The notes under the pieces: generated by a model
What the model was told of the DNA's origin: nothing
The model's input: only the letters and a program-made list of their open reading frames with translations
Databases searched by the model: none
In this document: positions 20,027 through 25,446 of the stretch, piece after piece
Numbering within the stretch: the stretch's first letter is position 1
Layout: each line of letters begins with the position of its first letter
Program-made: the position numbers and the translations under genes
Assembly (NCBI GenBank): GCA_009781005.1
Contig: WQYX01000029.1
Span: 1-43,684, forward strand
Length of the DNA: 43,684 bases
Origin: Polyangiaceae bacterium
GTDB taxonomy: Bacteria > Myxococcota_A > Polyangia > Polyangiales > Polyangiaceae
Direction of reading: 5' to 3'

Positions 20027-20052
20027 GAGAGTTGCGGTACGCACGCTCTTAG

Positions 20053-20083
20053 CACTCCTGCCGGAAGTATTCCGGCAGTAGCG
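20053..20083. repeat. 31-bp palindromic repeat, family C
   Basis: ctgccggaa-gta-ttccggcag (20058-20078) forms a 9-bp stem with a 3-base loop. It is flanked by TTAG on both sides (20049-20052 and 20084-20087). The same hairpin opens the longer family C element at 23591-23771, which is flanked by TTAA. Confidence 0.7.
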
Positions 20084-20086
20084 TTA

Positions 20087-20114
20087 GAGCGTATTCGACA
20101 GCCTGCTGCGCGAG
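20087..20114. repeat. family B left-end fragment
   Basis: gagcgtattcgacagcctgc and the bases after it match the left end of the family B copy at 25448. Similarity fades after about 28 bases and no right end follows, so it is a remnant. From here to 20195 I see only short similarity to 21868-21900 and no gene. Confidence 0.5.
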
Positions 20115-22579: not shown

Positions 22580-22651
<72 letters not shown>

Positions 22652-22983: not shown

Positions 22984-23541
22984 TCATTGAGGTGCGGTAG
23001 ATCCGTCGAGCACTTTTGCGACGTCCTTGGCAAGGTATTCCTCGTCGCCGGGGTTGTACCCTTCACGGATGGCTACCATCCTGCCCTGCTTGTCGATGAG
23101 AACGCTCAAGGGGGCAGATTTTTGGGGATTGTAGATTGCCGTAATACGGGAATCTTCGTCCGTCAGAACGGGGAAATTGAGCTGATTTCGTGCGGCGAAG
23201 GCCGGAACACGAGCCACGGTTTCAGGCCCATCCATCGCGATGGCAAGGATCACGAATCCTTTTGCTTTGTTCGCGTCATAGAGCCTTCGCAGGTGCGGAA
23301 ACTCGGCCACGCACGGCTCACACCACGTTGCACAAAAGCTCAGAAGGATGGCCTGCTTGCCAAGGTAGTTCGAAAGTTTGACGGTTTTGCCATCGAGATC
23401 TCGAGCCGTAAAATCCGACGCGGCACCAAGACCGGTGCTCGTGGTTCCACCCGTGGCCGCCCCGGCCTCCGTGCCTTGCTGCGCACAACCCACTGCGAGA
23501 AGCGCCGCGCTCAATACCCCCGCGCTCATCAGCAAACGCAT
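22984..23541 (-). CDS. TlpA/ResA-like thiol-disulfide oxidoreductase lipoprotein
   Basis: A 185-aa exported protein. The signal peptide ends in a lipobox, LLAVGC, so it is probably a lipoprotein. A thioredoxin-fold AhpC/TSA-Redoxin domain follows. Its active site is WCEPC, preceded by ILLSFCATW, and the cis-Pro region is SAPLSVLID. Such proteins reduce or exchange disulfides in the envelope, often for cytochrome c maturation or protection. The ATG at 23541 has AAAGGA about ten bases upstream and is preferred to a GTG seven codons earlier. It is a lone gene with no cytochrome maturation partner nearby. Confidence 0.92.
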   Translation of the reverse strand: MRLLMSAGVLSAALLAVGCAQQGTEAGAATGGTTSTGLGAASDFTARDLDGKTVKLSNYLGKQAILLSFCATWCEPCVAEFPHLRRLYDANKAKGFVILAIAMDGPETVARVPAFAARNQLNFPVLTDEDSRITAIYNPQKSAPLSVLIDKQGRMVAIREGYNPGDEEYLAKDVAKVLDGSTAPQ

Positions 23542-23590
23542 TTGCCGTATCCTTTCCGGCACGCGGCGAAATTGGCTAGCCCGGCCTTAA

Positions 23591-23771
23591 CGCTCCTGCC
23601 GGAAGTATTCCGGCAGGAGTGCAAGCAAAGCCGCGGGAGCGGCTTTTCGGAGGGGTGAATTGCCCGCGAAAGCGGGCAAGAGAGGGCGCCGCGCCCCCTT
23701 GAGACAAGGGAACACGACGGGTTTCCGCGAAGCGCAAACGCGTAGCCCGGAACGAAGTTCCGGCAGTCGTG
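23591..23771 (+). repeat. family C element: seven-hairpin structured repeat
   Basis: 181 bp between TTAA flanks (23587-23590 and 23772-23775), with terminal inverted repeats (cgctcctgccgg versus the complement of ccggcagtcgtg). It holds consecutive stems at 23593-23619 (12 bp), 23627-23646 (loop ggga), 23660-23679 (loop gaaa), 23684-23696, 23696-23710, 23721-23739 (one mismatch) and 23747-23763 (loop gaa). The GGGA and GAAA loops fit the GNRA pattern on the plus strand only, which suggests selection on an RNA. Confidence 0.7.
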
Positions 23772-23939
23772 TTAAGTGAGCTCGAGAGAAGGGGAATGGA
23801 AGGTTGCGACATGATGTCGGGGGAGGGCCCATGTTTATGACGAAATCGGCATTCCCCCGTCAATTGCTTTCGGTCGTCCGTCCGGCTTTTTCCCGAACCC
23901 GCTCCCCCTGCTTGTCGGACGCCTCGGGCAGGGGTCGTG

Positions 23940-23974: not shown

Positions 23975-24001
23975 TATCTAGGGACAAGCCCTAAAACGCG
24001 T

Positions 24002-25084
24002 TTATTTCGTGCGTTTCGTAGCGACGAGCGTCGTCCACATGGCGCGATCGTCGGCCATGGCGAGCAGCGTCCACATCGCTGCTGCGGTGATGGCGAGCGC
24101 TTGCAGCGGAACATCGAAGCTCCCTTGTGACAGGAGCGCGAGTGCGAACGAAACCGTGATGGCTGGCGGAAACCGGCGCTGAGCGAGCGCAACCACCGCC
24201 AAGAGGAGCGACGCAGGAATCAGGAAGGCTGCCACGGAAGACAGGCTGCGCGACACCGAGGTCGTTGCAACCTGCAAGAGTGAAGCGCGAAGGATCGCGA
24301 TGGTCGACGACGGATCCTCGATGTTGCGCGCGGCGACGTACGTGATGACGAAGCCGAGGACGACCGCGCCGTTCGCGAAGATGCGACTCGTACGCGATCG
24401 CATCGCGAGCCAGACGGCGACGAGCAGCGTTGCGACGCATTGAACGATGACGGATATCGTGCCGAGAATGCGGCCGACGTTGAAGAGAGTGAGGCTCGCG
24501 TGTTCCCCTGCGAGGGCGACCAAGCCCCATGCGTTGGGTCGCAAGATCCCGGAGAGAGACAAGAGAACGAGCACGGCGCCGAGCGCACGCGTGTGCGGGA
24601 TGCGCGCCGCCGTGATTCCTGCAACGAACGCGATCATGCTCGCGACGATCGAGAGGGTGATCGCCGCGAACGGGTGAAGTTTCTGCACGACCGCAGGGGA
24701 GACGAGCGCGATGACGAGCCCGCAGACAGCGACAACGATCCCGCGCACGAGGACGCTGATGCGCGTGCTTCGTGTGAGCTCGAATGCGCCGGCACTCGCG
24801 AGTGTGACGAGCATCGCCGCGAACGTGTAGCCGAGCGCCGAGGTCAGTATCTCGGTTGTCTCCACCGTGCCTTGCGCGGCGATCCCGCGCATGCCGGGCG
24901 CGATGAGCACGCCGCCGACCTTTGCGAGAATGCCAACCGCGCCGGCGAGCAAGAGTGTCCCCGATGCCCACGCGGTGCCTGGACTTCGCGGGCTCGTGGG
25001 CGGGCCGCCCGGTCCGGCGTTGTTCGATGCCACTCGTCTGAGCACACGCTCTATCTCTGTTGAGGCTTCTTCGGGCGCGCTCAT
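24002..25084 (-). CDS. polytopic integral membrane protein, unknown function
   Basis: About 360 aa. A short soluble N-terminus (acidic, then Pro/Gly-rich) is followed by roughly ten hydrophobic segments from residue 38 to the end, with basic loops. No transport or enzyme motif is recognised. The codon pattern is like that of the neighbouring chromosomal genes, unlike the repeats around it. Start at ATG 25084 is chosen because it begins a charged N-terminus; the frame stays open to 25135. There is no clear ribosome binding site. A longer 408-aa frame on the same strand is an antisense-like shadow. Confidence 0.75.
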   Translation of the reverse strand: MSAPEEASTEIERVLRRVASNNAGPGGPPTSPRSPGTAWASGTLLLAGAVGILAKVGGVLIAPGMRGIAAQGTVETTEILTSALGYTFAAMLVTLASAGAFELTRSTRISVLVRGIVVAVCGLVIALVSPAVVQKLHPFAAITLSIVASMIAFVAGITAARIPHTRALGAVLVLLSLSGILRPNAWGLVALAGEHASLTLFNVGRILGTISVIVQCVATLLVAVWLAMRSRTSRIFANGAVVLGFVITYVAARNIEDPSSTIAILRASLLQVATTSVSRSLSSVAAFLIPASLLLAVVALAQRRFPPAITVSFALALLSQGSFDVPLQALAITAAAMWTLLAMADDRAMWTTLVATKRTK

Positions 25085-25189
25085 TGTTTGGCTTTGATCG
25101 GTGGAGCCTACACCAATCGGTGACCCATCCGCCACGGCGTCGCTTAAGGTGCCCCGTCCGCGCCTGCGGCATCATCGGCCGTGCAGGAC

Positions 25190-25446
25190 TTGGCGCCGGT
25201 GGCTGCGGAGCGGTCAACCATCAGGATGGGGACCGCAGCAGCATAGATATCCGCAGCAGCCTCAACGACCCCCACCGAACAACAATCGGGGCATCGTCAT
25301 CGGAGCAGCAGTATCGGCGGTCTGATCGCGTTTTCGATTTTCACGGCACTCGCGTCGGAGAGCATCGTGGCGAGTGTAGTGATGATCCTTGCTGGGGTCG
25401 GTGCTGTTGATCGAGGCGTTCCTCGCGATTCGCAGCGGCGCGTCTT
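25190..25446 (+). pseudogene. possible remnant of a small membrane-protein gene
   Basis: One frame ends NNNRGIVIGAAVSAV and stops. A different frame continues at the same point with GGLIAFSIFTALASESIVAS and VVMILAGVGAV, which reads like a membrane helix. A one-frame shift near 25310 would join them after a Pro/Gln-rich stretch. The sequence then runs into the family B repeat at 25448. This is weak evidence, and chance cannot be excluded. Confidence 0.25.

Follow-up and report, generated by a model that had tools for sequence, protein, structure and literature searches.

The 43,684-nt stretch of a Polyangiaceae genome analyzed here (contig WQYX01000029.1; "the window") contains an intergenic 181-bp element made up largely of hairpins, and this locus raises the question of whether such an element is a structured RNA that became mobile, an interspersed palindromic repeat, or a small transposon with an unusual interior. 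An earlier note on this DNA had leaned toward a mobile structured RNA or a bacterial interspersed mosaic element rather than a simple MITE.

Structure and Copies of the Element

Positions 23587-23775 read TTAA, the element proper (23591-23771), and TTAA again; the extent, inverted ends, and flanks given in the earlier note were confirmed by the sequence, together with strong folding. The element has terminal inverted repeats and carries no transposase gene, as is characteristic of MITEs. It is located between two minus-strand genes, one coding for a ResA/AhpC-TSA-like thiol-disulfide protein (22984-23562), whose start is approximately 50 bp from the element, and the other a 408-aa ORF that matched no family (23991-25217). 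A tRNA gene is found at 22580-22651 (minus strand), approximately 0.9 kb away. As RNA, the 221-nt region folds with -107.6 kcal/mol on the plus strand (z -5.2) and with -106.6 kcal/mol on the minus strand (z -7.0), and none of 200 dinucleotide shuffles folded as well.

Seven stems are present, as had been noted, but they are not all consecutive. Read on the plus strand, stem 1 is the palindrome of the left arm with a GTA loop (23591-23621). It is followed by stem 2 (AAAGCCGC-GGGA-GCGGCTTT, 23627-23646), the unpaired motif GGGGTGAAT (23652-23660), stem 3 (TTGCCCGC-GAAA-GCGGGCAA, 23660-23679), and stem 4 (GAGAGGGCGC/GCGCCCCCTT, 23680-23700). In the right arm (23711-23773) the last three stems are nested: an outer stem (AACACGAC/GTCGTGTT) pairs 23711-23718 with 23766-23773 and encloses stem 6 (GTTTCCGC-GAA-GCGCAAAC, 23721-23739) and stem 7 (CCGGAAC-GAA-GTTCCGG, 23747-23763). 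Nor do the hairpins adjoin almost without spacers, because stems 2 and 3 are separated by a real spacer, AGGGGTGAAT, which is conserved better than any other part of the element. Of the GNRA-type loops, the GGGA of stem 2 persists in both sister genomes, whereas copies of the sister species have TTT, AAA, TTC, or ATC instead of the GAAA of stem 3.

A BLAST search of the organism's own genome (G000; 4.77 Mb in 199 contigs) revealed about 19 near-full copies with 92-98% identity, several partial copies, and lone copies of the left hairpin. About 13 copies, down to 79% identity, occur in a sister species of the same genus (G055; Polyangiaceae MAG Emb289P4bin44), and copies with 71% identity in a member of another genus (G016). 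A pattern scan of named genomes recovered the sister species and apparently unrelated chance matches, and no similar DNA was found in plasmids. The masked flanks of the copies share no recurrent protein and thus give no sign of an accompanying gene. Short peptides of 17-40 aa recur between unrelated loci (L004, L013, L018, L022, L119) and point to another dispersed DNA repeat in the genus.

When 33 copies from three genomes and two genera are aligned, 96.2% of the pair cells stay paired. Sixteen base pairs are changed on both sides and such changes affect 95 cells, compared to 9.1 pairs and 31.6 +/- 3.7 cells in shuffles, of which 0 of 500 came up to the observed values; sliding the pairing partners abolishes the signal. 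The covariation check proposed in the earlier note was therefore passed. Stems 2, 3, 4, 6, and 7 are supported by the fold and by this analysis, the outer stem of the right arm covaries, and five pairs of stem 1 are changed on both sides, although part of the stem 1 pattern could stem from gene conversion or template switching between the palindrome arms. These data support that the fold is maintained across copies, and the covariation is compatible with RNA as well as with DNA.

Ends, Target Duplications, and Kinship to IS701

The ends of the copies read YTAR followed by CACTNCTGCCGGAAGT. In the window, the left terminal inverted repeat CGCTCCTGCCGGAA (23591-23604, plus strand), which matches IS701 ends, and the right one, CACGACTGCCGGAA (23758-23771, minus strand), identified by end comparison, are bordered by the target-site duplication TTAA (23587-23590 and 23772-23775). 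The 4-bp flanks match in direct orientation in 12 of 18 copies in G000 (5.1 expected, p = 0.0002), with pairs such as TTAA/TTAA, TTAG/TTAG, CTAG/CTAG, and TTCG/TTCG, and differ in the remaining six; further outside, the bases show no agreement between left and right. A direct repeat of 4 bp is described for ISTth8 of the IS701 family (PMC6352166), and IS701-type duplications of 4-9 bp in another genus (PMC8024623).

IS701 transposases (PF13546) are encoded in 38 of the 183 genomes of the order. Where both ends of the respective elements were found, the termini read CACTAC or TACTAC (in occasional cases CTCTAC); CTAG is the usual flank, and the duplications are of the CTAG/YTAR type. One of them, a 1525-bp IS701 element in a genome of the same genus (L292 in G057; NCBIfam transpos_IS701, 386 bits at a cut-off of 150), ends in CTAG followed by CACTACTGCGGGAAGT, which equals the CACTACTGCCGGAAGT of the window family at 15 of 16 bases. 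No PF13546 match was obtained in G000 or G055, which is weak evidence of absence in such fragmented assemblies; the transposase gene may be missing from the assembly, lost, or unbinned, and the presence of a cognate transposase in the genome is not an essential feature of a MITE. Among the candidate terminal-repeat loci and PF01609 transposases of G000, none had matching ends, and it was in relatives that partner types were recovered; no autonomous element with Sorangium-type ends was seen. Related elements of other genera retain the core with different ends, which match none of the IS701 elements found, nor was any site confirmed to be empty in a second strain.

Like IS701 elements and the MITEs derived from them, the element has ends starting CACTACTG, a 4-bp YTAR duplication, many copies, and no transposase gene. 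It differs by a palindromic arm at each end, which results in four end motifs per element, and by a folded core whose conservation extends further than that of any single set of ends. With high confidence, the element is an IS701-type MITE. The earlier note was right that it is mobile and structured, but its contrast to a simple MITE is not supported, given the inverted ends, the 4-bp duplication, the lack of a gene, and the occurrence in the genus of an autonomous IS701 whose ends are nearly identical. We assign a probability of roughly 0.8 to the reading as a non-autonomous DNA transposon that is cut at the junction of YTAR and CACTNCTGCCGGAAGT and inserted into YTAR by an IS701-family DDE transposase. 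This enzyme would act in trans, or would have done so in the past, cutting at the ends and inserting into a YTAR target that becomes the 4-bp duplication. Each end lies within a palindromic arm, and the conserved folded core between the arms travels with the ends.

REP/BIME sequences or REPINs moved by a RAYT (HUH) transposase resemble the element in their palindromic, dispersed, intergenic, and mosaic build, and loops of the GAA and GNRA types located on one strand would fit as well. Such an origin is nevertheless very improbable, as is the bacterial interspersed mosaic element of the earlier note, because a real 4-bp target duplication is present, the foot of the palindrome shows YTAR instead of a GTAG or CGTC tag, and the ends match IS701 terminal inverted repeats.

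The first hairpin had been reported to recur alone at 20053-20083 between TTAG flanks. The copy and its flanks are real (TTAG/CACTCCTGCCGGAAGTATTCCGGCAGTAGCG/TTAG, 20049-20087, plus strand), but it consists of a left end joined to a right end: it starts with CACTCCTG up to the GTA and finishes with CAGTAGCGTTAG, the right end as in L008-L010. The direct repeat TTCCGGCAG occurs in both the left arm and the right end, and a deletion between the two repeats would give exactly this product. Judged from its sequence, the lone copy thus looks like an internally deleted copy, and loss of the sequence between the two TTCCGGCAG repeats is the most likely origin of the short copies. As other lone copies are near-perfect palindromes, the short form may also be directly mobile itself. 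In G016, the lone end motifs are mostly half palindromes, and no IS was found there. The many single half-palindromes CTAGCACTACTGC there (L230-L245) are often located immediately before or after genes and resemble TGCTAGnnT -10 boxes; they may be remnants or exapted promoters.

Insertion Sites

According to a crude codon-composition gene caller, 0 of 27 copies lie inside a gene. When the flanks were joined at one copy of the duplication, a codon-biased frame ended at its native stop inside the 4-bp target at 11 of 26 sites in G000 and G055, including convergent genes that share TTAG. YTAR contains TAG or TAA, and thus insertion there leaves the gene intact. One joined site (L017) is crossed on one strand by a long frame, so that intragenic insertion is also possible there. 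The copies occur in all four orientations relative to the neighboring genes. The intergenic copies, often placed exactly at gene 3' ends, and the TTTT that follows stem 2 in this species would be in line with a transcription terminator or insulator that owes its spread to the protection of gene ends. This explanation is improbable, since no site in the region qualified as a terminator and the sister species has TTCG in place of the T run.

A Conserved Core between Varying Ends

In the usual MITE the ends are conserved and the middle drifts. The element inverts this pattern, with a conserved middle and ends that vary between lineages, and conservation of the middle while the ends change points to a selected core. 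This core consists of GGGGTGAAT, a stem-loop, AGAGGGG, and a second stem-loop. A covariance model of the element (R1) has matches in 19 of the 183 genomes of the order and in four genomes of a distant Myxococcota family (f26). Matches of the model below approximately 35 bits may be chance because wrong-strand matches reach 32 bits. The arms of the matched elements are unrelated in sequence (CACTACTGCC, AACATCGATCGG, TACGGCGC, TGTGCCGAG, GAGCGGTTTTC, and others), and nearly all elements are bounded by CTAG or TTAG. Most keep the order of stem 2, GGGGTGAAT, stem 3, AGAGGGG, stem 4, and GGGACAAA, and GGGGTGA, the first seven bases of the unpaired GGGGTGAAT, is invariant in 27 diverse aligned cores. 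In two loci of the distant family (L423, L431) the core was not visible in the stretch viewed. MAFFT columns misregister stem 3 between genera and were left aside as the basis of a core model.

Three genomes (G012, G034, G048) match R1 through stem 2 and the arms only and belong to a second type. They contain relatives of a second family, in which stem 2 (AAGCCGCGGGAGCGGCTT) recurs exactly at eight or more other places in G000; its members (L493-L500 and L503-L507 in G000; L501-L502 and L508-L512 in G055) are bounded by CTAG and have arms starting TGCCGCC and a shorter core, GGGGGCGGAGCCCCC. In two of them (L510 and L511 on contigs C56 and C19 of G055) an unrelated palindrome replaces the left arm, suggesting that arms may be exchanged between elements. 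The shared stem 2, the different arms, and this replacement show the elements to be modular, and we place high confidence in a conserved, modular structured core. The core most likely acts as a structure, either a hairpin in single-stranded DNA or an RNA, that would be bound by a putative factor.

If the core acts as RNA, it would be transcribed from the plus strand and selected for protein binding, stability, or regulation, and the transposon ends would be its vehicle. This reading is possible but rather doubtful. The compensatory changes in a core shared by elements with unrelated ends, and the invariance of the first seven unpaired bases, are consistent with it. However, G-U variants on the plus strand (19 pair positions) show no clear excess over A-C variants (12 positions) and thus no clear strand bias, the GNRA loop of stem 3 is not conserved, and the copies adopt all orientations to their neighbors. 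Moreover, no Rfam family was matched at gathering or relaxed thresholds, and the element contains no terminator or promoter-like site.

The Core Motif at Phage DGR Targets

A different role of the core is suggested by diversity-generating retroelements (DGRs) of phages. The pattern GGGGTGAATYG-N(8-34)-AGAGGGG occurs at 108 loci in IMG/VR, and at 80 of these the bases not forced by the pattern form stem 3. At 50 of the 108 loci the upstream 130 nt are repeated 71-373 nt downstream, with at least 80% of the differences at A, which is the mark of a DGR template repeat; on the same contigs, such a repeat accompanied 0 of 452 random positions. The motif thus lies just 3' of the variable repeats in phage DGRs. 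The frames upstream of it end like C-type-lectin variable regions, and at one locus (L318) the downstream ORF codes for a reverse transcriptase (RVT_1). Of the 22 loci found with a scrambled pattern, none was structured or had a repeat. Plain BLAST against phages had returned chance matches of 21-24 nt. A model built from the phage loci only recovers, with 37 bits and E 1.8e-7, the core in the window including stem 3 (23649-23700), as well as the cores of relatives, and nothing outside such elements below E 0.02. The phage set was gathered with the element's own motif, and therefore the independent evidence comes from the DGR context and from the unforced pairing rather than from the similarity itself.

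In phage BPP-1, a hairpin that forms in DNA downstream of the variable repeat (VR) is required for efficient homing (Guo et al., 2011; PMC3240598). The core resembles such DGR target hairpins (PMC3240598) in its GC-rich stems of free sequence and GRNA/GNA-type loops, and the identical motif of GGGGTGAATYG, stem-loop, and CRAGAGGGG is found in some of the phage DGRs. The hairpin of BPP-1 itself is a plain GAAA hairpin that lacks GGGGTGAAT; the motif at the phage targets thus is a consensus longer than the hairpin described for that phage. Its conserved unpaired bases are candidate contacts for whatever recognizes a DGR target, and this question becomes testable.

Despite this likeness, it is unlikely that the core serves as a recognition hairpin in DNA of the DGR kind and recruits retroelement or host factors. 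A template repeat was found near 0 of 147 anchors at Myxococcota core copies, which are thus not themselves DGRs, and no DGR parts were seen adjoining the copies in the Polyangiales. Unlike at DGR targets, neither a variable or template repeat nor a neighboring reverse transcriptase was seen with the element, and the motif is transposon cargo. Tentatively, and with low confidence, we suggest that the folded motif shared by the Myxococcota transposons and the phage DGR targets may be read by a single factor, either cellular or element-encoded. If so, these mini-transposons could plant landing sites for retroelements at gene 3' ends.

In large AT-rich phage contigs, GGGTGAATTG, a stem-loop, and CAAGAGGG also occur in another repeated structured element, which is not adjacent to a DGR and is present in several copies within one contig (L309, L313, L405, L435, L437, L439, L440, L442, L451, L459, L465, L468, L470).
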